DNA from: a virus
Reading direction: 5' to 3' (one strand)
Length of the DNA: 23,027 nucleotides
Virus record (IMG/VR): IMGVR_UViG_3300045912_000120
Location: 1 to 23,027 of that record
Position numbers and translations under genes: made by a program. Below the pieces are notes generated by a model. It was not told where the DNA came from. It was given only the letters and a program-made list of their open reading frames with translations, and ran no database searches. Shown here piece after piece: positions 6,540 to 23,027 of the stretch. Positions within the stretch are counted from its first letter, which is position 1; each line of letters opens with the position of its first letter.

Positions 6540-8951
<2,412 letters not shown>

Positions 8952-9021
8952 GATTACTCGTGTGACTTTTTAGTTTGTTGGTATATATTAAAGTATAATA
9001 AGCGATTTTTTTCTACTTTTT

Positions 9022-9215
9022 CTAAAGCGTCATAGCACCCTCTCACCACCTATATCGTCACCTAATTCACTACCACCACCTTCTGATACACCATCAATCA
9101 TTTTATACTGTTCATTTCTTTATAGTTGCTCTGGGGCATATCCCATATTTCTTTACCAAGAACTTAGTACAGAAATATGGATCTTTATCTTTGATGTTAC
9201 TCACCAGATTAGACT
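9022..9215 (-). pseudogene. Remnant of the portal C-terminus (duplicated fragment)
   Basis: The minus strand reads YAPEQL, stop, RNEQYKMIDGVSEGGGSE, matching the portal end (MSPEQLERNEQYKMSEGISQGGG). GAA has become TAA inside it and the Gly/Asp tail is shortened. The fragment has no start. It is joined at about 9215 to a remnant of the protease-scaffold coiled coil, marking a tandem-duplication junction. Confidence 0.8.
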
Positions 9216-9457: not shown

Positions 9458-10030
9458 TTAATTTTTCATCTCATAAAATTGAATACTTCCATTGGGATTG
9501 AATCCCAATGATTCGGTGAGTGTATTCATTTTAGCTTGAGAAAAAACTGGTTGTGCTACGACATCGTACGTTAACAGTTGGTTAATTACAATAAGACCGT
9601 CAGACTTAACCACTCCTGCTGCACGATATGAAACATATAAATGTTTTCCTTCTTCTACCATGGCCATCGCATTTTTACCTTGTGGTGTAGGTAAAAGCTC
9701 AATTTCACCTTCCACTCTACTATCCCTCTCATTCATCCATATTTTATTTATAGAATGAGAAACATTAGTAAATTTCATTCCAAAGTTTTCAGGATGATTT
9801 AATTCACCATAAATACAACCATTCTTTTGAATGGACTCTTGCATTCTTTTAAGGTGAGGTTGGAAATCTTTTGCAATATAGAATCGTTGTTTTTCATTTA
9901 CAATATCAAAAATTGTAAAGGGTCCACTTAGAATATACTTCTTTGGGTTTTGCATTTCAACAGACTCTTTCAAAAGAGTCAAAGATTCCTCACACTGGTG
10001 GGTAATATATACGTTTTTTGACATGTTCAA
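9458..10030 (-). CDS. Truncated duplicate of the prohead protease, probably inactive
   Basis: 190 residues (ATG 10030, or 10024 to match the intact copy) covering the whole protease domain, then TAA right after FYEMKN where the intact gene enters its scaffold. It is highly similar to residues 1-188 of the 803-residue protein. Changes fall on key motifs: GELDHP has become GELNHP, and the serine motif YVSSRAAG has become YVSYRAAG, replacing one of the two candidate catalytic serines. Much of the rest is conserved and the frame is open for 573 nt, so purifying selection or recent origin is possible. It may be a decaying copy, a regulator or dominant-negative partner of the active protease, or a capsid-internal protein. 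Only the duplication and substitutions are seen; the roles are inference. Confidence 0.7.
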   Translation of the reverse strand: MNMSKNVYITHQCEESLTLLKESVEMQNPKKYILSGPFTIFDIVNEKQRFYIAKDFQPHLKRMQESIQKNGCIYGELNHPENFGMKFTNVSHSINKIWMNERDSRVEGEIELLPTPQGKNAMAMVEEGKHLYVSYRAAGVVKSDGLIVINQLLTYDVVAQPVFSQAKMNTLTESLGFNPNGSIQFYEMKN

Positions 10031-10082
10031 TCTTTATTTTGTTGTTATATGTTAAGTTAAAAAGCGATTTTTTCTACTTTTT

Positions 10083-11738
10083 CTAAAGTGTTATACCACC
10101 TTCATCTCCACCCGAATCGCCACCTGAGTCACCGCCACTATCACCCCCATCACCCCCATCACCACCACCTTGTGATATACCCTCACTCATTTTATACTGT
10201 TCATTTCTTTCTAATTGCTCTGGGGACATATCCAGTATTTCCTCCACCAAGAACTTAGTAGAGAAATATGGTTTATCATCTTTATCTTTGATGTTACCTG
10301 CTAGATTAGATATAATAGTAGACTGTTTTTCGAGAGTAGAATAAAAACGCCATTTCTCAAATATGTTATCCTTGACAAATTCTATATCAACACTAGATTT
10401 GAACATCATGTTATCCTTATACTCAGGATAATCTAATACCATCTGTATCCATAGCGGCTTGACTAATATCTCTTTGAATATCATCTGTAAACGACCTATA
10501 AACTTAGAAAAATCACGCTCTTCTCTCGTAACTTCGGATATAGAATCGAACATACCACCCCCTCTGCCATCCTTAGATAACCTAGAAAGTGGTATCATAG
10601 ATGCCAATTCGAGCTTCTCTCTAAAGTAATTAAGTAAAGTGTCATCTTGAAGATTCAACTGAGGTGGGTCTATAAATTCTATCTCTGGACTATTACCACC
10701 ATCCTTAGGCATCCAAACATCCTTGTAAGCCTGTAAACTACGCTGACCATTTATTCTAGCAAATCCGTATTGGTTATCAAAATCTATATCATCATCATAG
10801 GTCGCTATCAACTTACCTATTTCCTCTTCTGCCTTGGTGGCAGTCAATCCATCGACTGGTATTAAAAACTTACGGTACAGTGTAGCTGTTGTAATAGACC
10901 ATATTATCTTAGAGTCTTCCAAAACGGAAAGTATATTATAAGGTCTAATCAGATTCTCTACATATGAAATTTCACCTTCATTTTGAGCCATAGCATATGA
11001 AATGTATATAATTTGAGAATCTAAAAATATTCTCCTGTTTACTGGGTCATCTGGATACTGAACCCAAAGAAATTCCCCACTGTAAGGGTCTATATCCTGT
11101 ACTAAAGTAGTATGGTCAAGCTCTATGATATTTAGAACCTTTCTCTGCCTATCATCAAATACTATTTCAAAAGCCAAATACCCTTCAATAAGAAGTCTTT
11201 TTGCCAAATGCCATGCCCTAATCCCATCATTAAATCTAAATTGAGTGTAAAGCGCGTTAAAGTTCTCATCCATTTTACGAGCAACCTCTTCACCAAATTT
11301 ACTTTCGAGGCTATTCGGATTACAAAAACGCTTTGTCTCAGAATCATAAATAATCATCTCCTGTGATACAATATTGATATAATCACGTATTCTCTCTTTT
11401 CTCGAATAATCAACTAAGATGTTACGCATCTGTGGGTATGACTTATCAAAAAATGACATCCTCTTCTCACTGATTCGTGTAGCTAAAGCATTAGCAAAGG
11501 AAGCATACTGTGAATCTGGACTATAAGTGTTTGCTTTATCCGGAGTAAACCCCGTAATCACCTGTGAACCCCTAGGAACACCAACAGTATTCTTGTAAGT
11601 CATACCCTCGTAATCCTGACCCCAAGAAGAGAGAAATCTCAGTACCTTATTATATACACTTCTACCCCTCCCCCCAGAAGTCATCATTCCAGATGGCATA
11701 TTATTACCAATTCCATTCGGATTCTTTAAACTGCTCAT
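10083..11738 (-). CDS. 20: Portal vertex protein, T4 gp20-like
   Basis: 551 residues, close to T4 gp20. Family hallmarks are TATLYRKFLIPVDGLTATKAEEEIGKLI (from residue 284), KDVWMPKDGGNSPEIEFI (339-356), FREKLELASMIPLSRL and TREERDFSKFIGRLQMIFKEILVKPLW. These form the stem, wing and crown core of the dodecameric ring through which DNA is packaged and the tail is attached. The C-terminal tail (about 524-548) is a Gly/Asp/Ser low-complexity stretch with short GGD repeats, unusual for gp20 and probably disordered. The gene heads the head operon. Upstream, TATAAGTA (11765-11758) resembles a T4 late box 19 nt before the ATG. Its last ~70 codons were copied into the duplication at 9022-9215. Confidence 0.95.
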   Translation of the reverse strand: MSSLKNPNGIGNNMPSGMMTSGGRGRSVYNKVLRFLSSWGQDYEGMTYKNTVGVPRGSQVITGFTPDKANTYSPDSQYASFANALATRISEKRMSFFDKSYPQMRNILVDYSRKERIRDYINIVSQEMIIYDSETKRFCNPNSLESKFGEEVARKMDENFNALYTQFRFNDGIRAWHLAKRLLIEGYLAFEIVFDDRQRKVLNIIELDHTTLVQDIDPYSGEFLWVQYPDDPVNRRIFLDSQIIYISYAMAQNEGEISYVENLIRPYNILSVLEDSKIIWSITTATLYRKFLIPVDGLTATKAEEEIGKLIATYDDDIDFDNQYGFARINGQRSLQAYKDVWMPKDGGNSPEIEFIDPPQLNLQDDTLLNYFREKLELASMIPLSRLSKDGRGGGMFDSISEVTREERDFSKFIGRLQMIFKEILVKPLWIQMVLDYPEYKDNMMFKSSVDIEFVKDNIFEKWRFYSTLEKQSTIISNLAGNIKDKDDKPYFSTKFLVEEILDMSPEQLERNEQYKMSEGISQGGGDGGDGGDSGGDSGGDSGGDEGGITL

Positions 11739-11757
11739 AAATGTTGTACTCTAAATT

Positions 11758-11765
11758 TACTTATA
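11758..11765 (-). promoter_or_regulatory. Possible late promoter box TATAAGTA upstream of portal
   Basis: One mismatch to T4 late TATAAATA, ending 19 nt before the portal ATG. The AT-rich background makes a single match weak; support comes from similar boxes before the capsid gene, the amidase and the gene at 13143. Confidence 0.35.
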
Positions 11766-11824
11766 TATGCACCTACTATACCCACATAGAGATATAGGTG
11801 TTTTCTTACTTTTTCAAAAAACAC

Positions 11825-11856
11825 TTGCATTTATAAGAAATTATGCTTTACTTTTT
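11825..11856 (+). promoter_or_regulatory. Possible Bacteroidota-type promoter for the small frameshifted gene
   Basis: TTG at 11825-11827, 21 nt, then TACTTTTT at 11849-11856. The -33 part (TTGCATTTAT) matches that of the strong promoter at 17385. The -7 box lacks the final G. It lies 37 nt before ATG 11894. Confidence 0.4.
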
Positions 11857-11893
11857 AGCGTAATTTGATGACAACCACCTAAAAAATAATAAA

Positions 11894-12057
11894 ATGGAAA
11901 ATCAAGAAATGAACCAAGAAATGAATCAGAAAATGAAAAAAAACTGAAATATTACTTTGAACTATCTAAGTTCGAATGCAAACATCATAAACTGACACCG
12001 ATTCCTGATGCCGCTGAGTTATACCGTAGAGGATACAGATTCAACCCTTCTATTTAA
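11894..12057 (+). CDS. Small protein joined by a candidate -1 frameshift at A_AAA_AAC
   Basis: ATG 11894 reads MENQEMNQEMNQKMKKN and stops at TGA 11945. The -1 frame continues from the same point as LKYYFELSKFECKHHKLT, then PIPDAAELYRRGYRFNPSI, to TAA 12055-12057, with no start of its own. The junction (11938-11944) is the classic slippery heptamer A_AAA_AAC in the correct phase, inside an A8 run. A modest hairpin follows 12 nt later (11957-11963 with 11969-11975, seven pairs including one G-U). The product would be about 54 residues, with a Gln/Met/Asn/Glu-rich head and a basic aromatic tail. The alternative is a one-base homopolymer error or mutation. It sits alone on the plus strand between minus-strand late genes behind a promoter-like element. 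Function unknown. Confidence 0.5.
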
Positions 12058-12405
12058 TTTCTAAATCCAACTACCAAATAATTAAAGATATGTATAGAAA
12101 TAAAGACCCTGATTAGTTAAGCGACCCCACAAAAAATGATGTTATGAAATACAAAATCATCCATTTAATTTGTTAATAAGAAACACCGCCATGTAAAAAA
12201 TAAAATGTGCCAGTAAGTCATATAGCTAAGTTGCTGATTTACGATTCATCTAAACTCTTGGAATGAGAATAGATGTCTTATTTAATATATGCCATATCAT
12301 TTTAATCAAAAAGTCATGTTAACAAATGATATAATTTTAGATTTCAGAATCAGAATCAAAAAACAACGAATGGGTATCATTAAATGACATGATGATACTG
12401 AAAGT
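12058..12405. other. Gap without a recognisable gene
   Basis: AT-rich and full of stops in all frames. A plus-strand frame from ATG 12091 reads eight codons, TAG, then about 19 more protein-like codons, perhaps a dead small ORF. A 17-codon minus-strand ATG frame (12390-12337) has an acidic tail. I see no tRNA, strong terminator or repeat here. Confidence 0.4.
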
Positions 12406-13143
12406 CTACTTCAAAAAGCTAGTTATTTCAACTCCCGATTTTATTAGCATTTCTCTTCTTTGTTCTGGGGTTAGTTCATTTATTCTAGCCAATTCTTCTT
12501 TAGATAAACCTGACCCAAGTCTAATCAATAAATCTCTTTCTCGTTGCGCCTGTTCTCTTATCTTAGCTTTCCATATCTTTTCTATTGCTCGCTCGTCCAA
12601 CCCTGTCAATTTAGTGGTGTTTATGTTAAGTAGTTCAACTATATTACCTGTGTGTATTTCAAACACTTTATGAATTTTACTGACTATCAATTCACGCAAA
12701 GACCATTCAAATCCTATTGACTTAGCATATTTGTAAACATCCTCGTATTTAACTTCATAAGCTCTCTGATTTACAATCTCATTCACATCCAAGTCTTGTT
12801 CCATCCATTGATCATATGACTGTAATATATCATTAAAGAAAGCAACCCTTAGATAGTTAGGTAATATAAAATTAGTGTTAACTACGTGGAGTATAGAGTG
12901 CTTATCGTACATTCTATATGCAACCGTAAAACAGGGGTTGAATTTTTCAACCTTTTGGGACTTACCATCCAAATCATACATCAAGAAGTAGAATCTACCC
13001 GGTCTTATCTGAGTTATAGGTATAGGTGCAAATTCTTGTACGCTCGGCTTTTCCAAATTTTTCTTTAACCATTCTGTAGAATATACTACTGGTTGATTGT
13101 TCGATTCGATTAGAAGTAAATCATGTTGTTCATTAATAAACAT
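12406..13143 (-). CDS. Conserved-looking late protein in the gene-53 position, function unknown
   Basis: 245 residues, ATG 13143 to TAG. The N-terminal half contains PGRFYFLMYDLDGKSQKVEKFNPC and YLRVAFFNDIL. This recalls a widespread myovirus structural-cluster protein with a PGxxYxFxYD...LPxxxR pattern, though I cannot name it. The C-terminal ~70 residues are a charged helical tail with an EELARINELTPEQRREMLIKSG segment. In T4 the order is 4, 53, 5, which would make this a baseplate-wedge candidate; sequence resemblance to T4 gp53 is not evident, so that is a positional guess. It follows gp4 by 12 nt in the same reading frame, separated by a TGA. A perfect TATAAATA box lies in that spacer. 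Confidence 0.75.
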   Translation of the reverse strand: MFINEQHDLLLIESNNQPVVYSTEWLKKNLEKPSVQEFAPIPITQIRPGRFYFLMYDLDGKSQKVEKFNPCFTVAYRMYDKHSILHVVNTNFILPNYLRVAFFNDILQSYDQWMEQDLDVNEIVNQRAYEVKYEDVYKYAKSIGFEWSLRELIVSKIHKVFEIHTGNIVELLNINTTKLTGLDERAIEKIWKAKIREQAQRERDLLIRLGSGLSKEELARINELTPEQRREMLIKSGVEITSFLK

Positions 13144-13147
13144 GATG

Positions 13148-13155
13148 TATTTATA
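13148..13155 (-). promoter_or_regulatory. Perfect T4-type late box TATAAATA between gp4 and the next gene
   Basis: The minus strand reads TATAAATA at 13155-13148, four bases before ATG 13143 and directly after the gp4 TGA. If used, the mRNA would be almost leaderless. It could be chance in AT-rich DNA. Confidence 0.4.
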
Positions 13156-13632
13156 TCACTTACCAAATATGAAATCTTCGGTTGCTATAATAAACTGAAA
13201 CCCCCTACGCTCACACCACTCTTTAGCATGTGCCCACTTGCATATATTCTTCATGTACATAGTTACCGCATACTGATAATTCTTCAATGATTTAGGAGTA
13301 ACTCTGGATGGTTTTTTAGGGGGCACTGTCTCTGATGCGGGTTTAACTTCTATAATGTATACCTTCTCGAAACCTTCATCATCTAAGACAATCACAGAGA
13401 AATCTGGGTAATATCGTCGAATTACGCCTTCTGGGTCTTTATATTGAATTTCATTTACTTCTGATCCCCATTTAACAACACGCTCATTTGAGTCTAAATA
13501 TCGCATGAATCTAAGCTCATACCCAGACCTATAGAATATATTATGCTTATCCCCTAAATACTTACTTTCATTTATAAGGTTATACTTACCTTGTCTGTAT
13601 TTAGAGTTATTTGGCGCTTTCTTGAATTCCAC
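13156..13632 (-). CDS. 4: Head completion nuclease, T4 gp4-like
   Basis: 158 residues against 150 in T4 gp4. The family pattern is clear: a basic N-terminus, then FYRSGYELRFMRYLDSNERVVKW (E39), RRYYPDFSVIV (D77) and IIEVKPASETVPPKKP (E95, K97), which is a PD-(D/E)xK-type nuclease core. The end WCERRGFQFIIATEDF matches the gp4 end. In T4, gp4 (with gp50) and gp2 complete the DNA-filled head before tail joining. It lies between unknown late genes and is followed by a gene in the position of T4 gene 53, as in T4. The stop is TGA, and the next gene is in the same frame. Confidence 0.9.
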   Translation of the reverse strand: MEFKKAPNNSKYRQGKYNLINESKYLGDKHNIFYRSGYELRFMRYLDSNERVVKWGSEVNEIQYKDPEGVIRRYYPDFSVIVLDDEGFEKVYIIEVKPASETVPPKKPSRVTPKSLKNYQYAVTMYMKNICKWAHAKEWCERRGFQFIIATEDFIFGK

Positions 13633-13648
13633 ATTTTATGTATCCGAC

Positions 13649-14089
13649 TTATATAACACCAGATATCAATATATCCATCAACTCATTTGTTGTATAAATA
13701 TCAGATATTGATAAGTCTGACATCGGATACATAAACTTGTTTAATCCTAACTCCACCCCTATAAGTTTTTTTTCATTTTCTATAGAAGAATCATCATTTT
13801 CATTATAAATCATCAATATAACCTTTTTAGATATACTTGTAACTGTCATATCCAAATCATATGATGGACATGACAGATGCTCATGGATTTGAATTAAACC
13901 AGTGTCTAATATCAATTCATAGATAGAGATGTCTTCTCTCACACCACCTTTAAATATATGCAAATTACTCAATATACAGTTATTACCAGATACCATAAAA
14001 TAATAATCTACTTCACAGGATAGCCTAAAAATGACTTTGGTATCATCCTCATAAACAGTCTCTACGTACTTGTATCGCTTTTTTATCAT
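13649..14089 (-). CDS. Unknown 146-residue late-block protein
   Basis: ATG 14089 overlaps the phosphoesterase stop (ATGA), so translation is probably coupled. The sequence alternates hydrophobic and polar residues (KYVETVYEDDTKVIFRLSCEVDYYF, SISKKVILMIYNEND), suggesting a mainly beta fold. It ends SDLSISDIYTTNELMDILISGVI. No catalytic motif, signal peptide or membrane segment is visible. It lies 16 nt before gp4, inside the morphogenesis cluster, so a virion-assembly role is possible but not shown. Confidence 0.65.
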   Translation of the reverse strand: MIKKRYKYVETVYEDDTKVIFRLSCEVDYYFMVSGNNCILSNLHIFKGGVREDISIYELILDTGLIQIHEHLSCPSYDLDMTVTSISKKVILMIYNENDDSSIENEKKLIGVELGLNKFMYPMSDLSISDIYTTNELMDILISGVI

Positions 14090-14883
14090 TTCATGGCGTG
14101 TGTTTGCATTTTAATAGAGACTTTTCCACGTATCTCGTACATATCAAATACGTATATGACATCTGGATTGTTTCCTAGTGTATCTATTCCTATCAAACAC
14201 CTCCCTTTTTGATTAAATGTCATCATAGGCATAACTGTTGAGGTGTGTCCAACTATCTGATTATACGGTAGATTTTCACCCCGTACATATTCAGCGGCAA
14301 TGGTATGATAATCGACCCATTCAAATGAACCGAAAGGGCTTTTACCGTTTCGCTTAGGACATTTGTATCCCATGACATCCTTTGGTATTTCATATACACT
14401 CAAACTCTCATAGTGCTCTATGATATACCTAAAATCCAATCTGAAATCAGACTCAATAGCATCCACATATGAAGACTGAAAACCAGCGTGAGAGAATACC
14501 AAATCATTAAATCGGTAAAAGACATCGAAATCTTTTATATTATCATTAAGCAGTCCATTCAATCTAAAGTATAGCTTTTCATTGAAACCACTACATCTAA
14601 ACTTCACATCAGGGTATATGTAGTGCAAATCATGATTACCTACCAAAAGTCTTACACGCTGTGGGTATTTTTTCTTTAGTTCAATAATCCTTGTCATATT
14701 GTCGTATGATTTCTCAACTCGCTCATCATAGAACGAATCAAAATAATCACCCATAAATACTACTTCATCTATCAGATTATTCTCCAACATACCCCCTATA
14801 CAGAGACCGTTGCTAGAACCGACTCTACAAAGAACATCCTGACAATGAATATCTGGAATTGCTAGTATAGACCTTTTATTCAT
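14086..14883 (-). CDS. Calcineurin-like metallophosphoesterase
   Basis: 265 residues with all the motifs of the two-metal phosphoesterase fold: DIHCQ (D11, H13), GDYFDS (D46, D49), GNHDLHY (N83, H84, D85), SHAG (H132) and GHT (H213), then IGIDT. The family includes Ser/Thr protein phosphatases, nucleotide and polynucleotide phosphatases, and phage enzymes such as lambda phosphatase. The GDYFDS and GNHD spacing is closest to the protein-phosphatase-like branch, but the substrate cannot be read from sequence. It is cytoplasmic, with no signal peptide. It sits in the late block and overlaps the next gene by 4 nt. Possible roles are processing of host or phage phosphoproteins or nucleic-acid ends. 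Confidence 0.9.
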   Translation of the reverse strand: MNKRSILAIPDIHCQDVLCRVGSSNGLCIGGMLENNLIDEVVFMGDYFDSFYDERVEKSYDNMTRIIELKKKYPQRVRLLVGNHDLHYIYPDVKFRCSGFNEKLYFRLNGLLNDNIKDFDVFYRFNDLVFSHAGFQSSYVDAIESDFRLDFRYIIEHYESLSVYEIPKDVMGYKCPKRNGKSPFGSFEWVDYHTIAAEYVRGENLPYNQIVGHTSTVMPMMTFNQKGRCLIGIDTLGNNPDVIYVFDMYEIRGKVSIKMQTHAMK

Positions 14884-14943
14884 ATCTCATTCTCTTATAC
14901 AGGATAAAGATATGAATAATTTCTGAAAAATACAAAAAATAAA

Positions 14944-15798
14944 TTATAAAACAATTGGATTGTAATAATCAAGTGCGATTCTCACTGCCCTTTCGTTATT
15001 GCTATAAGTACATATCAATTTACCTTCACAGAAACACAAATCTGATATTCTAAGGAGAATTTTATCATTCCCAGATATGATAGACAATAGCTTATGTACA
15101 CCTGGGTCAAACCCGTCTAATGCTCTACCATCTAAATGCCCATCCATCACTGGGTAGATTTCTGATTCTTCGATATTAGCGTAAGTTTCGTCTTCCAATT
15201 TATCAAATCCTAATTCATCAAACTTACCAGAGTAATTAACAAACATGTCAAAGTCTTCTGGTATGTTAAAGGCAACGTCAAACGCAGCAACACACTTACT
15301 ACCATCTGAAAGTAAGTAAGTTATTTCATTCGGTGTAACCTTTATCTGTTTAGAACCATTTACACCAACAATACACCTAACTGTGTTTTCAGCGATATGG
15401 AAACCTGCTAATTCAAGACGGTCAACTACTATATCACGTACTACGTCTGTAAACATAGCATCTGATTCTTGAGTTTCTTGAGTATCTTGATTATCTGAAT
15501 TATACTCTGTTTCATATACATCCACCTTACTGGAATGGGTGGTGTTGTATTTAGAATACATTTTAAATAAATTACTCTTATCCACTTCTAAATTCGTCAT
15601 CGTCGTGGTATAAAGATACTGGTCACCTTCATATACTTCAAGTATGAGTGTGTAACCACTACCGTTTTCATTAAGAGTAATATCGGATATTTTCAAGAAA
15701 TTGAAATATCCATTATCGTTAATACGATTTGAACGATATAACTCACCTGTTTTTATATTCTTGTTTACGCTTGGTTTATGTTGGCTAAACTTTTTCAT
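14944..15798 (-). CDS. Unknown acidic 284-residue protein
   Basis: It starts at ATG 15798, preceded by AAGGAG 13 nt upstream, one of the few Shine-Dalgarno-like sites in the window. Residues ~15-90 look like a beta-rich domain (GYFNFLKISDITLNENGSG, TLILEVYEGDQYLYTTTMTNL). A Gln/Thr/Glu/Asp linker follows (QDTQETQESD), then an N-GSKQIKVTPNEITYLL region and an acidic stretch (DELGFDKLEDETYANIEESE). The end is beta-like (LLRISDLCFCEGKLICTY). No known family is recognised. It lies between the amidase and the phosphoesterase on the late strand. Confidence 0.7.
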   Translation of the reverse strand: MKKFSQHKPSVNKNIKTGELYRSNRINDNGYFNFLKISDITLNENGSGYTLILEVYEGDQYLYTTTMTNLEVDKSNLFKMYSKYNTTHSSKVDVYETEYNSDNQDTQETQESDAMFTDVVRDIVVDRLELAGFHIAENTVRCIVGVNGSKQIKVTPNEITYLLSDGSKCVAAFDVAFNIPEDFDMFVNYSGKFDELGFDKLEDETYANIEESEIYPVMDGHLDGRALDGFDPGVHKLLSIISGNDKILLRISDLCFCEGKLICTYSNNERAVRIALDYYNPIVL

Positions 15799-15833
15799 AC
15801 TCTATGTATCTCCTTTATAAGTTAAATTATCTA

Positions 15834-16637
15834 TCAATTACCTATAAGAGTCAATAGATAGTTTGCTACTTGATTAGCCAGTTCACTCCTACGCTGCTGG
15901 TATACTCTCATTTCATTATCATTGGATATGAAACATATCTCCCATAATACATTTTGACAGTTAGGTCTCAATATACCCAGTCGCTTATGGCGTGTAGCTG
16001 TTTCATATTTAACACCTGGTAAAAGAGCAGGTGTGAAATTAGCTCTAATAGGTACACCCAGTACACGGTTGGTTATCACACATATGTTATGGGCTATAGT
16101 GTTTTCTTCATTTGTACATGGGTCAGATACAAAAGCCTCTGTTCCCACTGCTGCTGGTGTGGCTGCATTAAAGTGTATATCAAGTATAACATCCCAAGGC
16201 TTCACTCTAGCGAATAAATCATTAATGGTCTGCTGTAGATTCCAGTTATCATTATCAATGATAACAACAGCACCACTATTTCTCATTTGATTCGCGATAG
16301 CATCTCTCATCCAAACGGCTTCTCTAGCTTCGGTTAAACCTAGATTATTGTTTACAGCACCAGGGTCTCTAACCAAATCATGTCCTGCTATAATGTAAAA
16401 AGTACGAACTCTATCTTCAACTTTTATAGGTTTAGTATTCGTTAAAGCCGCCCAGGTGTCGCTACCGACAATACCATCAGGATTCAATCCAACAGATGTC
16501 TGAAATTGTATAACGGCTCTATGAGTAAGTGGTCCAAATATACCCGTTAGGGGTAACCCTGCATTTATTCTCTGGTTTAGAAGATTCTGTAGTTCCACTA
16601 CTCTGGGTCCATTATCATTAAGTCTAAGAAGTACCAT
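15834..16637 (-). CDS. N-acetylmuramoyl-L-alanine amidase with peptidoglycan-binding domain (endolysin-like)
   Basis: 267 residues. Residues 3-66 are a PG_binding_1 domain (LRLNDNGPRVVELQNLLNQR, FGPLTHRAVIQFQ, GIVGSDTWAAL). Residues 78-265 are an Amidase_3 zinc amidase: AGH (H86), glutamate near 103-106, DIHFNA (H155), and catalytic glutamate in LWEICFISN (E233). It would cleave the amide bond between MurNAc and L-Ala of peptidoglycan. No signal peptide or anchor is seen, so export would need a holin; none is evident here. It could be a lytic enzyme or a tail-associated hydrolase. Its place in the late block fits either. It ends with tandem stops TGA-TAG. A GATAAATA box (16660-16653) lies 15 nt upstream. 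Confidence 0.92.
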   Translation of the reverse strand: MVLLRLNDNGPRVVELQNLLNQRINAGLPLTGIFGPLTHRAVIQFQTSVGLNPDGIVGSDTWAALTNTKPIKVEDRVRTFYIIAGHDLVRDPGAVNNNLGLTEAREAVWMRDAIANQMRNSGAVVIIDNDNWNLQQTINDLFARVKPWDVILDIHFNAATPAAVGTEAFVSDPCTNEENTIAHNICVITNRVLGVPIRANFTPALLPGVKYETATRHKRLGILRPNCQNVLWEICFISNDNEMRVYQQRRSELANQVANYLLTLIGN

Positions 16638-16652
16638 GCTGTTTTTTGTTTT

Positions 16653-16660
16653 TATTTATC
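16653..16660 (-). promoter_or_regulatory. Possible late promoter box GATAAATA upstream of the amidase
   Basis: One mismatch to TATAAATA, ending 15 nt before the amidase ATG, in the 60-nt space between divergent genes. Confidence 0.35.
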
Positions 16661-16697
16661 ATATATAGTTAAAATATAAACTTAATTTTTACACTAT

Positions 16698-17381
16698 ATG
16701 AGATTATATGAATTTAGAAACCGACTTTTCGAGCAAGAAGAAATAAACGAAGCTGGTTTATCTCGTATGGTAGATATGATGAAGAAGAGAGATTTTATCG
16801 TGGTTTCGGGTTTCAGAAATCCTATATCAGATGAAATGAGAGCCAAATATTCTCTAAAAGAGCAACAAGCTATAAACAGATACAATTCAGCTAAGATTAA
16901 AGGAGAACCCATCACCAGAGATATCTTAGAAGCTATGCCTGAGGGGGCTAAAGAAATAGTAGACAAAAAGATAATGAATAACAGAAAACAGAATCAGCGT
17001 ATACTAAATTTCATAAATAGTAAATCGGAGCAAATGGGAGGGTACAAAATGATTGGATTCTGAGAAGAGGCCCCTGATGATATGGATTATACAGATGCTA
17101 AGATGCAAGGTTTAACCTTACCCAGCCACGAAGAAAGCATACTGATTATCCGTCCTAATAATTACACTAAAGAAGACTTTTTGGCTTTCGCTGAACTATT
17201 GAGAAGTGAATTCAATCAGGATAGTGTTGTAATAAAAATAGATAATACCATAAGTCTACTTTTCAAAGGAGGTGATACCTATGACATAGGTAATAAGTTT
17301 ACTATGGGTAAACTAGGTCAAGGGTATTCTTCTATGCGTAACAAGCCAAATATCCCATTCGTATTCGAGTTCGCAGATTAA
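16698..17381 (+). pseudogene. DUF3293-like phage protein interrupted by one in-frame TGA
   Basis: ATG 16698 reads 121 codons to TGA 17061-17063. The same frame then continues without a break through ATG 17082 to TAA at 17381, giving 227 codons plus the TGA. The parts fit one protein. The first has MRLYEFRNRLFEQEE, FIVVSGFRNPISDEMRAKYS and an N-rich helix ending GGYKMIGF. The second begins EEAPDD and has HEESILIIRPNN, EFNQDSVVIKI, KLGQGYSSMRNKP and FVFEF. The order 'avoid or play games with' helices, GGY, E-S-x-L-V, QDSV, G-x-YS, F-x-FE resembles phage proteins of the DUF3293 type; this is recalled, not searched. TGG to TGA (FWEE) is the simplest lesion. It may be a dead gene, two separate proteins (16698-17063 and 17082-17381), or readthrough. 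Early accessory role assumed. Confidence 0.6.
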
Positions 17382-17384
17382 AAT

Positions 17385-17415
17385 TTGCATTTATCAGAAA
17401 ATATACTTATATTTG
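17385..17415 (+). promoter_or_regulatory. Bacteroidota-type promoter TTG-N20-TATATTTG
   Basis: TTG at 17385-17387, exactly 20 nt, then TATATTTG at 17408-17415. ATG 17433 lies 17 nt after the box, leaving a leader of about 10-13 nt. The promoter starts 4 nt after the previous gene ends. Confidence 0.8.
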
Positions 17416-17432
17416 CTTCAAATAGCTAAAGA

Positions 17433-18137
17433 ATGTATAAAATTTTAAGCGACGTAGATATAGAAAAGTATAATTACTTTCATCGAAGTGGTTATCACAT
17501 CAAGACATTGGACACATATCGGATGTATTCAGAAGACAAAACTGATAGTTACGTTCTAGTGGGTGTTAAGTCCATTGAACCCGAATTCAAATTCAGTTCT
17601 AAATCGGAGTTAAGTCATGTAGTCCGTTATATGAACGGAAGGAACACTATAACCAACCTAGCGAGCAATCATAATATATCCGTAGACGATGACACCAAAC
17701 TGGAAATATTAGAGCATCGTTATCAGACTAAAAGTATATTAGCACAATACGATGCGTATAGGAAAAATAAAAAAATAAATTTTAATTGGGTAGTTTTTGT
17801 ATATAACGATAACGTTTCATCCGTTTATGACGGAAGTGTGAAGCTAAATGAAATAAAAATTAGCAGATGTGCTTATCATTTACACCTTGAAATGAATAAA
17901 GAAAATGAAAGCACCGTGCTCGATGATAGTAATATCGCACACGTGTTTAAGCTAAAACACGACGGAGACGTGAAATCGGTTATCCATCTAAAAGGACATC
18001 TAGGAGGACAACAATCGAAACAAGTCATTGAATATGGTGATAGTTTCTGTGATATAATGACACGTATTATGAATAAGATATATGACATACCTGATAACAT
18101 CGAATCGAGATATGGGTACTTATTTAGAACTATATGA
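17433..18137 (+). CDS. Unknown 234-residue protein behind a host-type promoter
   Basis: ATG 17433 to TGA, followed two codons later by TAG. It is charged and soluble. Notable segments are KILSDVDIEKYNYFHRSGYHIKT, a DDDTKLEILEHRYQTK helix, FNWVVFVYNDNVSSVYDGSV and a histidine- and glycine-rich part (VIHLKGHLGGQQSKQ). I recognise no family. It is transcribed from its own consensus promoter against the direction of the late genes, so it is probably early. Its last 8 nt overlap the end of the convergent gene at 18130. Confidence 0.7.
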   Translation: MYKILSDVDIEKYNYFHRSGYHIKTLDTYRMYSEDKTDSYVLVGVKSIEPEFKFSSKSELSHVVRYMNGRNTITNLASNHNISVDDDTKLEILEHRYQTKSILAQYDAYRKNKKINFNWVVFVYNDNVSSVYDGSVKLNEIKISRCAYHLHLEMNKENESTVLDDSNIAHVFKLKHDGDVKSVIHLKGHLGGQQSKQVIEYGDSFCDIMTRIMNKIYDIPDNIESRYGYLFRTI

Positions 18138-18840
18138 ATTTAGATATCACCCAATTTCCAAGTATAAATGATATATCAACGCCCGTGCTGAGATGAGAAG
18201 GCTTAAAAAATAATTTTGGTAGCTCTTTCATACAGTAATAAAAGAAGTCTTGATTGTACTTTATATTATATCCAGACACATCAATGTTCACATTATCTAA
18301 AAATTCGGGTATATCTCTGTAATATTCTATATCATGATTAAGTCTAGTGTATTTTGACCACTGTTCTTTATTAGCGACTATCATAAAGTTCAATTCAACC
18401 TTTCTAAGTTTGAAATTGTTTATATAGTGTATCATGTAAAAGCGAATCAGTTCCACATCATCTATACTCAAATTGTATTCTACTGATACCGTACCGACAG
18501 ACACACGATTGTAATCAGATGGCGAAACCACATAATCATCGCTTATATTGCGAGAATTACTTGAGTTTTTAATTATTTTTTTATTTTGTCTATAATTATT
18601 CAACTCATCAACACACGAATCATTTTTAAGGATTCCGTGTGAATTTTTAATTGAAGAGTTAGGTGCAATATCAGAAAGAAATACATTAGAATGTAAGTCT
18701 TCTATATGAACTTTCAAATCGCTCCTTTTATCTAATTCACATATAATATATTTAAAATTAGAGTTAGTATTATTTAACATACTAGAAAGAATGAAGTTGA
18801 CATTCTTAAAAGTATCATCGTCAACTAATTTAATGTCCAT
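18130..18840 (-). CDS. Unknown 236-residue protein
   Basis: ATG 18840 to TAG, 12 nt after the gp55-like gene on the same strand, so probably co-transcribed with it. It is rich in Asn and Ser in the middle (NNYRQNKKIIKNSSNSRNISDD), probably a linker between two domains. The C-terminal part has VELIRFYMIHYINNFKLRKVELNF, EYYRDIPEFLDNVNIDVSGYN and ends ISFILGNWVISKFI. No motif is recognised. Its 3' end overlaps the convergent plus-strand gene by 8 nt. Confidence 0.65.
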   Translation of the reverse strand: MDIKLVDDDTFKNVNFILSSMLNNTNSNFKYIICELDKRSDLKVHIEDLHSNVFLSDIAPNSSIKNSHGILKNDSCVDELNNYRQNKKIIKNSSNSRNISDDYVVSPSDYNRVSVGTVSVEYNLSIDDVELIRFYMIHYINNFKLRKVELNFMIVANKEQWSKYTRLNHDIEYYRDIPEFLDNVNIDVSGYNIKYNQDFFYYCMKELPKLFFKPSHLSTGVDISFILGNWVISKFI

Positions 18841-18852
18841 GTGTGTATTTGA

Positions 18853-19362
18853 TTAAAACGAAAATAAACCTTCACCTTCGTTACCCCTTTCTATTGACAC
18901 ATAACCATTACACTCGTATTTTTTCTTACGATTAGTAATCTCATTAAAACCTCTAGCCATTCCTCTTTTGAATATCTCTGTATAGTAAGCGAAGGCGTTA
19001 TTGGATATGTTTATATCGAATGAGCGCCATCTTGTAAAAAGGGCATTGTATCCTTCTTGTAAACAATCCATCATATCATCTTTTGATTTGAAATCTTTAC
19101 CTTTCTTTCTTATGATATTCTTACCGAGTGCTATGAATATGCGTTCAAGTTCAGGTGTAAGTTGGTCTTGTTCTAAAGATTTCAAAGTCTCTTCTAGCAT
19201 CATCTTACCATCTATTGGAATGGTATAAGGCGAACGGGTACCTACACCTCTATTGGTTTTTGGTTTAGTTGCTTTTTTCTTTTTCTTAGGTGTTATCTGT
19301 GAATCAAATGTTTCCGTTTGATTGATAGACCGTTCTGTTTTTTCATTTTTTTCTGAAATCAT
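18853..19362 (-). CDS. 55: Late-transcription sigma factor, T4 gp55-like
   Basis: 169 residues (T4 gp55 is 185). After a lysine-rich N-terminus (PKKKKKATKPK), residues ~72-150 match gp55: IFIALGKNIIRKKGKDFKSK, DDMMDCLQEGYNALFTRWRSFD, NNAFAYYTEIFKRGMARGFNEI and NRKKKYE. This corresponds to the region-2-like part that binds core RNA polymerase and the TATAAATA late box. The end EGEGLFSF is acidic then hydrophobic, like the T4 gp55 tail that contacts the sliding clamp. It would direct host RNA polymerase to the late genes on the minus strand. It is divergent from the LRR cluster across a 122-bp AT-rich region. Confidence 0.85.
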   Translation of the reverse strand: MISEKNEKTERSINQTETFDSQITPKKKKKATKPKTNRGVGTRSPYTIPIDGKMMLEETLKSLEQDQLTPELERIFIALGKNIIRKKGKDFKSKDDMMDCLQEGYNALFTRWRSFDINISNNAFAYYTEIFKRGMARGFNEITNRKKKYECNGYVSIERGNEGEGLFSF

Positions 19363-19398
19363 TTATGATGGTGTGCTTATAGCTTTAATTTATTATAT

Positions 19399-19441
19399 TT
19401 TATTCAATCTAAAAGGTTATGTTTTAATAGTTTATTCAATC
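19399..19441. repeat. Pair of 11-bp direct repeats in the divergent promoter region
   Basis: TTTATTCAATC occurs at 19399-19409 and 19431-19441, a 32-bp (about three helical turns) spacing, between the gp55 start and the LRR-cluster promoter. It could be an operator pair; AT-rich chance is possible. Confidence 0.3.
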
Positions 19442-19449
19442 CAAATAAT

Positions 19450-19480
19450 TTGTATTTTTTAATCATTATCATTATATTTG
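19450..19480 (+). promoter_or_regulatory. Bacteroidota-type promoter TTG-N20-TATATTTG for the LRR cluster
   Basis: TTG at 19450-19452, exactly 20 nt, then TATATTTG at 19473-19480. ATG 19485 is only 4 nt after the box (leaderless), and ATG 19494 in the same frame would leave a very short leader. Confidence 0.8.
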
Positions 19481-19484
19481 TATA

Positions 19485-19946
19485 ATGATAATAATGACTG
19501 AAACCCTAAATGTTTTTCTAAACACTGTAGTTGGGTGTAATTCGTGGCATCTTAACAAAAAGACTGGTCTAATAGATACCGATTCAAGTGTTAATATAAT
19601 CGGTAACACTTTAATTTATGACTACAGAAATGATAACGGTATCTCTAATAAAAAGAAGAAAAGAAACAAGCAGATATTCGGTGTAGTAGGAGGTGATTTT
19701 TGTTACATACAAAGAATGGAAACCGAGATAACCCTACTACCAAAACACATAAAGGGAGATTTAATAGTCTATGGTTCTAATCTAAACAGAATAGATTCAG
19801 TTAAAAACATTATACTGGAAGGCGATTTTAAGATAAGACTAAGCGATATACCTAAAAAATTCCTAGAATTGATTATACAGGACTTAGAAGTTCTTATAAG
19901 TGAAGGGTTTAGTATAAAAGAAGCAGATATTAACTATTACACATGA
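19485..19946 (+). CDS. LRR-family paralogue lacking most repeats, with shifted C-terminus
   Basis: 153 residues from ATG 19485 (150 if ATG 19494 is used). The N-terminus (LNVFLNTVVGCNSWHLNKKTGLIDTD) matches the cap of the downstream genes (SFLDKVVSGKWSINSDTNLID). The end (RLSDIPKKFLELIIQDLEVLISEGF) matches their C-cap (DLSYIDKKYYHVIIPEIEELISKGI). Between the caps only one or two degenerate repeats remain (LPKHIKGDLIVYGSNLNRIDSV) plus a lysine-rich insert (KKKKRNKQ). At the end, 13 nt replace 12 nt of the family sequence, so TGA 19944 truncates the usual YKxIHYxNKLIxLL tail, which is still readable in the next frame. It is first behind the cluster promoter. It may still work as a short protein or be early in decay. 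Confidence 0.6.
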   Translation: MIIMTETLNVFLNTVVGCNSWHLNKKTGLIDTDSSVNIIGNTLIYDYRNDNGISNKKKKRNKQIFGVVGGDFCYIQRMETEITLLPKHIKGDLIVYGSNLNRIDSVKNIILEGDFKIRLSDIPKKFLELIIQDLEVLISEGFSIKEADINYYT

Positions 19947-19982
19947 AATCAATTCACTATACCAATAAACTAATTGACTTGT

Positions 19983-20629
19983 TATGGTGCTCAACAATAA
20001 ACAAAAGTCATTCCTTTAAAATGTAGCCATAGGAACATGGTAAATAAACCAAAATACAGGTTTAGTTAATGTAAAAGGTAATGTACTTATGTCAGATACG
20101 AGAATAAATGAAATACCTGTCAAATTTGGTAAAAATAACTGCTAGTTTCAATTGCTCATATAACCGATTGAATAGTCTGGTAGGTGTACCTCAATCAGTC
20201 GGTGGTTATTTCAATTACAGTGATAACAAATTAACTAACTTAAAAGAAGCGCCTAAATTGGTTAAGGGTAATTTTTATTGCAATAGTAATCAATAAACTA
20301 GTTTAGAAGGGTTACCCAAATCAGTCAGAGGTTATTTTTATTGCCATAATAACAAATTGTCTAATCTTATAGGAGCACCTAAATCAGTTGAGGGTGATTT
20401 TGATTGTTTAGATAACGAATTGATGACATTGGAAGGGGCACCCCAATTGGTTGGTGGTAATTTCCATATAAAATTAAGTTATATTGATAAAAAGTATTAC
20501 CATGTCTCCATACTCGAAATAGAAGACATGTTGGGAATGGGTATAAAATTTGATTATCCATATATTGCATTTGTCGAAAATTATTCTTTACTTTGTGATA
20601 TAAAGAAGTATACTATAATAATAAAATAA
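19983..20629 (+). pseudogene. Decayed LRR gene
   Basis: From ATG 19983 the sequence aligns with the intact genes (MVLNNKQKSFL against MKITNEQKSFL) but has TAA at codon 12, a second TAA where TCA is expected (TW-stop-IN against IWSIN), a one-base insertion near 20140 (A-rich run) and TTG to TAA at 20294-20296. Two open fragments remain (20108-20296 and 20357-20629), with repeats such as GVPQSVGGYFNYSDNKLTNL. The C-cap LSYIDKKYYHVSILEIEDML is recognisable. The sequence has drifted more than in the next two genes, so it is the oldest decaying member. Confidence 0.8.
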
Positions 20630-20639
20630 TAGAGGTATT

Positions 20640-21845
20640 ATGAAAAAAACTGATAGACAGAAGTCATTCCTTGACAAAGTAGTCTCTGGAAAATGGTCAA
20701 TCAATTCAGATACAAATCTGATTGATGTAGAAGGTAGTGTGGATATGTCACAAATGAATTTGACTGAAATACCTGTTAAATTTGGAAAAGTAACTGGTAA
20801 TTTATATTGTTCGATTAACCAATTGACTAGTTTGGATGGTGCACCACAATCAGTTGGAGGTTTTTTCAATTGCTCATATAACCAATTGACTAGTTTGGTA
20901 GGTGCACCTCAATCGGTAGGTGGTAATTTCATTTGCCATGAAAACCAATTGACTAGCTTAGAGGGAGCACCACAATCGGTAGGTGGTAATTTCATTTGCT
21001 ATGAAAACCAATTAACTAGCTTAGAGGGAGCACCACAATCAGTTGGAGAAGATTTCTATTGCTCATATAATCGATTGACTAGTCTAGTAGGTGCGCCCCA
21101 ATCAGTTGGGGGGGATTTCATTTGCCATCATAATAGATTGAATAGTTTGGTAGGTGCACCTCAATCAGTTGGGGGTGATTTCAATTGCTCATATAACCAA
21201 TTGACTAGTTTAGAAGGTGCACCTCAATCAATTAGGTGTATTTTCAATTGTTACCATAACCAATTGACTAGTCTGGATGGTTCACCTCAATCGGTAGGTG
21301 GTAATTTCATTTGCTATGAAAACCAATTGAATAGTTTGGTAGGTGCACCTCAATTAGTAGGTGGAGATTTCAATTGCCATCATAATAGATTGACTAGTTT
21401 AGAGTGAGCACCTCAATCAGTTGGGAGGGATTTCATTTGCCATCATAACCAATTGACTAGCTTAGAGGGAGCACCCCAATCAGTTGGAAGGGATTTCATT
21501 TGCTCATATAATCAATTGACTAGTTTAGAAGGTGCACCCCAATCAGTTAGGAGGGATTTCTATTGCCATCATAATAGATTGACTAGTTTGGTAGGTGCAC
21601 CTCAATCAGTTGGGGGTGGTTTCAGTTGCTCATATAACCAATTGACTAGTCTGGTAGGTGCACCTAAATCAGTTGGAGGTTTATTTTATATAGATTTAAG
21701 TTATATTGATAAAAAGTATTACCATGTCATTATACCCGAAATAGAAGAACTAATATCTAAAGGTATTAGACTATACAACCCAGATGAATACTATTACCCC
21801 TACAAAGAAATTCACTATAAAAATAAGTTGATTGAATTGTTATGA
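20640..21845 (+). pseudogene. LRR protein with 14 repeats, interrupted by a single TGA
   Basis: ATG 20640 opens a 401-codon frame with one in-frame TGA at 21405-21407. Structure: N-cap ~1-55, fourteen 21-residue repeats of the form [xx]NxLTSLxGAPQSVGGxFxC, and a C-cap (DLSYIDKKYYHVIIPEIEEL ... KLIELL). The TGA replaces the glycine codon GGA in repeat 10 (LTSLE-stop-APQSV). All other units and the rest of the frame are intact, so the lesion is recent or read through. As written, the 5' product is 255 residues and a 130-residue fragment could start at ATG 21453. Its true stop overlaps the next ATG (ATGA). The repeats form a parallel-beta solenoid typical of protein-binding LRRs. The protein has no signal peptide. 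Function unknown; host-protein binding or receptor interaction is only a guess. Confidence 0.8.
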
Positions 21846-22890
21846 AAATAACCAATGAACAGAAGTCATTCCTTGACAAAGTAGTCAATGGTATATGGTC
21901 AATCAATCCAAATACTGGTTTAACTGATGTAGAAGGTAGTGTGTATATGTCACGAATGAATTTGACAGAAATACCTATAAAATTCGGTGAAGTGACTGGT
22001 AATTTCGATTGCTCGATTAACCAATTGACTAGTCTGGAAGGAGCACCTCAATCAGTTGGCAGTAGTTTCTATTGTTATAAAAACAAATTGACTAGTCTGG
22101 AAGGAGCACCTCAATCAGTTGGCAGTGGTTTCTATTGTTATAAAAACAAATTGACTAGTTTGGATGGTGCACCACAATCAGTTGGGGGTGGTTTCGATTG
22201 CTCATATAACCGATTGACCCGTCTAATAAGAGCACCCCGATCAGTTGGGGAGGGTTTCTATTGCCAAGCAAACCAATTGAATAGTTTGGTAGGTGCACCT
22301 CAATCGGTAGGTGGTAATTTCATTTGCCATCAAAACCAATTGACTAGCTTAGAAGGAGCACCCCAATCAGTAGATGGAGATTTCATTTGCTATGATAACC
22401 AATTGACTAGTTTGGTAGGTGCACCACAATCAGTTGGGGAGGGTTTCTATTGCCAAGCAAACCAATTGAATAGTTTGGTAGGAGCACCACAATCAGTTAG
22501 GGGTGGTTTCAATTGCTCATATAACCAATTGACTAGTCTGGATGGTTCACCTCAATCAGTGGGTGGTGATTTCATTTGCCATGAAAACCAATTGACTAGT
22601 CTGGATGGTTCACCTCAATCAGTGGGTGGTGATTTCATTTGCTATGAAAACCAATTAACTAGCTTAGAGGGAGCACCACAATCAGTTGGAGAAGATTTCT
22701 ATTGCTCATATAATCGATTGACTAGTCTAGTAGGTGCGCCCCAATCAGTTGGGGGTGATTTCATTTGCCATCATAATAGATTGACTAGTTTGGTAGGTGC
22801 ACCTCAATCAGTTGGGGGTGATTTCAATTGCTCATATAACCAATTGACTAGTTTAGAAGGTGCACCCCAATCAATTGGAGTTTTATTTTA
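20811..22890 (+). repeat. Two arrays of 63-bp LRR-coding repeats
   Basis: Each array has 14 units of 63 bp, separated by a C-cap and N-cap of about 300 bp. Some runs are nearly identical between arrays: about 140 bp at 20998-21137 matches 22641-22780, including the rarer codons TTA and GCG. Adjacent duplicated units also occur (GATGGTTCACCTCAATCAGT units near 22550 and 22610). Unit exchange and gene conversion are implied. Confidence 0.85.
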
Positions 22891-23027
22891 TATAGATTTA
22901 AGTTATATTGATAAAAAGTATTACCATGTCATTATACCCGAAATAGAAGAACTAATATCTAAAGGTATCAATGTATACCAACCAGATGAGTATTATTACC
23001 CATATAAAGAATCATACTATAATAATA
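21842..23027 (+). CDS. LRR protein with 14 repeats, intact in the window (3' partial)
   Basis: ATG 21842 overlaps the previous stop, and the frame stays open for 395 codons to the window edge. N-cap MKITNEQKSFLDKVV and GIWSINPNTGLTDVEG, then EIPIKFGEVTGNFDC leads into fourteen 21-residue repeats and the C-cap (DLSYIDKKYYHVIIPEIEEL), ending in a tyrosine-rich DEYYYPYKESYYNN. By comparison with its neighbour only about 8 codons are missing. Repeat framework residues (N, L, SL, GAP, V, G, F, C) are nearly fixed. The two residues before Asn vary among SY, HE, YE, HH, HQ, YK, QA, YD and SI, and the residue between F and C among I, Y, N and D. These fall on the predicted beta-strand face. The cytoplasmic or virion location is unknown. 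Confidence 0.85.
   Translation, partial: MKITNEQKSFLDKVVNGIWSINPNTGLTDVEGSVYMSRMNLTEIPIKFGEVTGNFDCSINQLTSLEGAPQSVGSSFYCYKNKLTSLEGAPQSVGSGFYCYKNKLTSLDGAPQSVGGGFDCSYNRLTRLIRAPRSVGEGFYCQANQLNSLVGAPQSVGGNFICHQNQLTSLEGAPQSVDGDFICYDNQLTSLVGAPQSVGEGFYCQANQLNSLVGAPQSVRGGFNCSYNQLTSLDGSPQSVGGDFICHENQLTSLDGSPQSVGGDFICYENQLTSLEGAPQSVGEDFYCSYNRLTSLVGAPQSVGGDFICHHNRLTSLVGAPQSVGGDFNCSYNQLTSLEGAPQSIGVLFYIDLSYIDKKYYHVIIPEIEELISKGINVYQPDEYYYPYKESYYNN

Follow-up and report, generated by a model that had tools for sequence, protein, structure and literature searches.

The DNA analysed here, which we call the window, is an IMG/VR viral contig of 23,027 bp, taken in full. Its phage is T4-like, and the following genes are found ahead of the repeat genes that form the subject of this report:

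4617-6470: gp23-type capsid protein
6540-8951: S77 prohead protease
10083-11738: gp20-type portal
13156-13632: head-closure protein
15834-16637: amidase

The nearest relatives of the window portal are portals from metagenomic phages of 634-735 kb, and the window is therefore likely to be one piece of a very large genome. Several other features lie in this part of the contig. At the contig start (2-484) there is a tandem duplication inside an open reading frame, with MEDDGYDVEIKYEGLYIAVTKELENGEKQDIF present twice. An open reading frame of 488 aa at 1503-2969 encodes a DNA polymerase B exonuclease region and stops early relative to full-length family members, and is possibly a split or truncated gene. 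The prohead protease reading frame contains a run of Asp, Glu and Lys codons (7235-7385) made of a 12-bp tandem repeat in about 12.6 copies, and the N-terminal part of the same gene is partly duplicated at 9458-10310, with 81% identity to 8401-9213 over about 850 bases.

Tandem arrays of 21-residue repeats

The right end of the window carries four related leucine-rich repeat (LRR) genes in tandem, namely a short diverged gene, a dead gene, and the two array-bearing genes referred to below as genes 1 and 2:

19485-19946, + strand: short, diverged paralogue, an intact open reading frame of 153 aa with a tail resembling those of genes 1 and 2
19985-20629, + strand: decayed paralogue with an N-cap remnant, about five units and a tail, containing several stops and a frame change
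20640-21845, + strand: gene 1, with N-cap 20640-20816, 14 units 20817-21698 and tail 21699-21845
21405-21407, + strand: in-frame TGA in unit 10 of gene 1
21842-23027, + strand: gene 2, with N-cap 21842-22018, 14 units 22019-22900 and a tail from 22901 that is cut by the contig end

Gene 2 matches the short paralogue at 19686-19946 (E 1.7e-7). The matches to the decayed paralogue, at 19987-20169 and 20135-20560, contain TAA and TAG codons, and its stops are also present in a relative contig, IMGVR_UViG_3300045911_000115. With these two paralogues (19485-20629) lying beside them, genes 1 and 2 belong to a tandem family, and because gene 2 reaches the contig end, the LRR cluster may extend further.

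An earlier note on this DNA had described two adjacent arrays of fourteen 63-bp units. Both genes do carry fourteen such units, each encoding a 21-residue cysteine-ladder LRR, but the reading frame of gene 1 is interrupted by the TGA in unit 10. The possibility that this TGA is a recoded codon was rejected, because the other long genes of the window are open under table 11; recoding is also disfavoured by the identity of the affected codon, which is Gly in all of the other units except for one with Arg.

Where do the units vary? With positions numbered relative to Asn (0), entropy (H) and pN/pS were computed over 26 units, whose consensus is approximately NxLxSLxGxPxxVxGxFxCxx. There is no variation at Phe(-5), Cys(-3), Asn(0), Leu(+2), Leu(+5) or Pro(+9), while entropy reaches 2.41 bits at -1, 1.95 at -6, 1.88 at -4, 1.85 at -2, 1.70 at +6 and 1.67 at -7. 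The two residues before Asn and the residue between Phe and Cys are thus variable, as the earlier note had proposed, but -6 is equally so, and +6 and -7 vary as well. Likewise, the six surface dipeptides that it named become nine when those preceding Asn are counted (SY 9, HH 5, YE 3, HE 2, YK 2, QA 2, and YH, HQ and YD once each; n=26). The among-unit pN/pS is 1.79 at -6, -4, -2 and -1 versus 0.20 at the other positions, a comparison of paralogous repeats that marks tolerated or favoured variation rather than strict positive selection.

Structural evidence is in keeping with this pattern. The window array proteins score above the cut-off for Pfam LRR_4 (31 and 28.6 bits versus 27), and their tandem units fall within the 20-30 residues of the LRR consensus and have its LxxLxLxxN-type pattern. 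The model predicted for gene 2, an LRR solenoid, is confident (mean pLDDT 91.4); its short strands are regular and fall at about -6 to -4 in many of the units, and its fold matches are LRR proteins. Alternating positions of an LRR strand point outward, and the variable positions -6, -4 and -2 fit such an arrangement. The exposed-face pattern is thereby supported by unit entropy and pN/pS, by the predicted model, and by the recent changes pooled over phage pairs that are described below. Variation of the arrays may amount to variation of a phage binding surface.

Exchange of sequence between units and between neighbouring genes

The near-identity of non-allelic runs in the two genes was confirmed, with 20998-21137 and 22641-22780 matching at 139 of 140 bases. 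The exact tracts are as follows:

20989-21112 (gene 1) and 22632-22755 (gene 2), + strand: 124-bp exact copy, the longest exact non-allelic run
21143-21223 and 22786-22866 (gene 2), + strand: 81-bp exact copy
21680-21766 and 22882-22968, + strand: 87-bp exact copy, comprising the last unit and tail common to genes 1 and 2
22507-22599, + strand: 93-bp stretch of gene 2 found exactly in gene 1 of the relative contig, where it is allelic to 20864-20956

None of 5000 permutations of the mismatches in that register equalled the 124-bp run. Neighbouring units are also duplicated, as had been noticed before, with near-duplicates at units 1/2 and 9/10 of gene 2.

More direct evidence comes from comparison with another phage. 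A search of viral contigs with three window proteins found one contig as close relative, IMGVR_UViG_3300045911_000115, which is colinear with the window over 9507-21292; it ends within unit 8, and the comparison covers units 1-8 of gene 1 only. The flank at 16707-20639 differs at 15 of 3933 positions (0.4%) and gene 1 at 32 of 653 (4.9%), giving an odds ratio of 13.5 (p 3.8e-17). All 20 of the array differences have a matching base at the same column of another window unit, compared with null means of 7.6 for random columns and 10.6 for the same columns; none of the 20,000 trials exceeded 18. In the N-cap, 8 of the 12 differences match gene 2. Gene 1 of the relative also contains 68 bp that are identical to a neighbouring gene 1 unit.

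The order of units 1-8 is nonetheless the same in the two phages. Patches of sequence change while unit order is kept, which argues for non-allelic gene conversion in register and against the permutation of units that the earlier note had envisaged. Its broader proposal, non-allelic recombination between units, is strongly supported by the near-identical relative together with the unit and gene indels of other phage pairs. The comparisons show conversion at this locus between two phages, and related clusters show indels of units and of genes; the copying between cassettes that characterizes gene-conversion repertoires, whichever the direction of transfer, is found here.

The arrays are not the sole divergent stretch between the two phages. 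The 9507-10100 part of the protease gene duplicate is far more diverged than the flanks. Upstream of the portal gene, 300 bases that appear to be non-coding (11907-12207) have 41 mismatches and 9 gap positions, in surroundings where the phages are otherwise about 99.6% identical, and the amidase gene has 14 differences in 300 bases of its N-terminal part (16407-16707), compared with 0-4 in most neighbouring stretches.

Other phage pairs extend these results to gains and losses. Loci L059 and L112 have no substitutions in 3897 aligned flank positions, and one 63-bp unit is absent from L112; similarly, L116_4 is one unit short of L127_5. L091 is without three LRR genes of L089, with the bordering genes 99.7-100% identical. 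The 13 differences between L078 and L079 are all in one LRR gene, within 73 bp of its tail that match paralogues in part, and the flank has none in 2777 positions. Arrays are unchanged in several (most other) near-identical pairs, and at such divergence the process is therefore not a fast one. A family member also occurs in two Vibrio phages, whose genome lengths and gene tables are nearly equal, and their arrays were left out of this test of change.

A large gene family and its possible explanations

T4-like huge phages carry tens of LRR genes per genome. A scan of viral contigs found 141 stretches encoding such proteins, 80 of which were retained and form 75 loci, and a second scan gave 17 loci; a scan of genome contigs gave a single distant match, in an Oscillospiraceae MAG contig. 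The genes occur in tandem runs, with up to 12 in 10 kb (L067). One contig of 596,785 bp (L109, L114, L129, L130 and L132-L137) has at least 46 LRR open reading frames in the 120 kb that were read, 15 of which form a single same-strand run, and 132 query matches across its whole length. Among 12 large LRR-rich contigs, a T4-type portal is present in 10 and a gp23-type capsid gene in 10.

The explanation that we consider probable is that genes 1 and 2, as tandem paralogues, belong to a large phage LRR family and have 63-bp units that recombine non-allelically. The family, found in large T4-like phages, would consist of free-standing LRR solenoid proteins. Units would exchange with one another and with those of neighbouring genes, mostly by in-register conversion of patches of about 30-120 bp, and unequal exchange would sometimes gain or lose one unit or a whole gene. 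Such conversion could hold the Leu/Phe/Cys/Asn framework uniform while shifting the exposed residues (-6, -4, -2 and -1) in blocks. The phage's own T4-type recombination machinery may perform the conversion, and gene 1, with its TGA, may be a currently damaged copy that can still donate sequence. What would the proteins do? Our preferred guess is that they bind proteins within the cell and target host factors; the concave face would then contact a variable partner, most likely a host intracellular protein.

Could the same observations arise without selection for a changing surface? In neutral concerted evolution, units that are 80-100% identical would convert and slip, and the exposed variation would reflect weak constraint. 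This account, which we regard as possible but clearly less likely, readily accommodates the conversion of N-caps and tails, the synonymous patches that travel together with other changes, and the dead and interrupted paralogues that adjoin. It fits less well with an among-unit pN/pS above 1 at exposed positions and with the fact that each genome has kept tens of genes intact over the long term. In addition, recent amino-acid changes pooled over phage pairs are in excess at exposed positions (27/236 versus 40/1002, p 3.5e-5), mainly owing to one diverged pair; between the window locus and the relative contig, 3 of 9 recent residue changes fall at the four exposed positions.

Somewhat more doubtful is the proposal that the family consists of packaged LRR effectors that are injected and act on host proteins, like the T4 internal proteins, with the window genes as variants that lost or never had a head-targeting peptide. 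In T4, the gp21 protease cleaves after L/I-X-E, and ten N-terminal residues of IPIII are enough for head targeting (PMC9026906). The best clue to function comes from the N-terminus of many LRR relatives, which is similar to the capsid-targeting sequence of T4 internal head proteins, with peptides often like MKRISNYKTFINE. A hydrophobic-x-Glu site at residues 8-15 was found in 126 of 198 LRR relatives versus 124 of 465 other open reading frames at the same loci, by a loose test and among related sequences that are non-independent, and S77-type proteases are above cut-off in 7 of 26 contigs. Against this, the capsid-targeting-like peptide is absent in both window genes, whose proteins start where the peptide-bearing relatives resume past it, and packaging is therefore not predicted for genes 1 and 2. 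A still more ambitious reading, which we hold to be rather unlikely, would join these elements: a phage repertoire of tens of LRR genes, partly head-packaged and injected, would have its binding faces remixed through inter-unit conversion and so track host proteins as they change, much as receptor repertoires built by gene conversion do elsewhere.

The contigs compared are short-read assemblies, and wrong joins between units could in principle create a mosaic and the appearance of exchange. The relative contig stops within unit 8, that of the window stops just past an array, and the longest exact repeat, at 124 bp, is near common k-mer limits. Such an artefact is nevertheless improbable, considering that unit order is preserved in the relative and that the N-cap, outside the array, has the same donor pattern. 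Moreover, the overlaps of allelic and non-allelic sequence at the joins are just 31 and 5 bp, below the false-join length for usual k-mers, which makes the conversion finding fairly robust against simple assembly chimeras.

A diversity-generating retroelement would explain the concentration of variation on a few exposed codons, but is extremely improbable, since every array change has a donor in another unit, the changes lack the adenine specificity expected of copying from a template repeat (7/20 at A in the window), framework synonymous sites also change, and a reverse transcriptase was not noticed among the annotated genes of this 23-kb fragment. The earlier suggestion of variation without a reverse transcriptase holds in that none is needed for the observed changes, but its reach is the 23-kb fragment rather than the whole phage genome.

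On the favoured reading of paralogues that recombine non-allelically, the system is a bacterial virus with converting LRR families of up to tens of copies per genome, in which conversion, unit loss and gene loss can be followed at the strain level. If the proteins meet host factors, the arrays would let the course of a phage-host arms race be read, and would offer natural binders in which the scaffold is fixed and the faces are exchangeable. If the process is neutral, the arrays remain a clear example of concerted evolution in the genomes of large phages.

Comparison with known leucine-rich repeat systems

The phage families nearest to genes 1 and 2 are PHROG 21719 and 7816 (matches at 6e-23 and 2e-15), LRR families of unknown function to which no recombination behaviour is attached. 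Domain and family searches found no attached known functional domain in the window LRR genes, and a PADLOC search of the two array genes gave no match. Full-text searches on LRRs of huge or jumbo phages and on phage LRR gene conversion, over a literature that includes few subscription journals, yielded no account of the system.

Among solved structures, the top sequence match is Internalin J of Listeria (PDB 3bz5; E 4.8e-15), which is also a fold match. Its LRR domain likewise has a 21-residue LRR and a cysteine ladder, and Cys is present at -3 in 26 of 26 window units. InlJ is a wall-anchored bacterial surface protein; the window proteins, in contrast, are short phage proteins with caps alone flanking the repeats. 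They do not resemble a full-length class 1 internalin with export and wall-anchor regions (NF033187, 74 bits versus a cut-off of 1700), and, judged from sequence, their N-cap starts without a hydrophobic signal stretch. The best fold matches are to the LRR domains of the effectors YopM (E 1.8e-7) and SspH1, and the YopM, SspH1 and IpaH group also gives sequence matches. This group, however, has 20-residue units compared with the 21 of the window, and the C-terminal NEL (E3 ligase) domain of the IpaH/SspH effectors was not found by Pfam in the window proteins, with LRR_4 the sole domain above cut-off.

In animal and plant immunity, LRR families are known to exchange sequence by gene conversion. 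A close parallel is with the variable lymphocyte receptors of lampreys, in which repeat cassettes are copied in a manner like gene conversion and LRR faces vary as a result (PMC3900441). The lamprey process is somatic, deaminase-driven and directed to a defined acceptor gene, whereas the phage LRR genes display evolutionary change between lineages.
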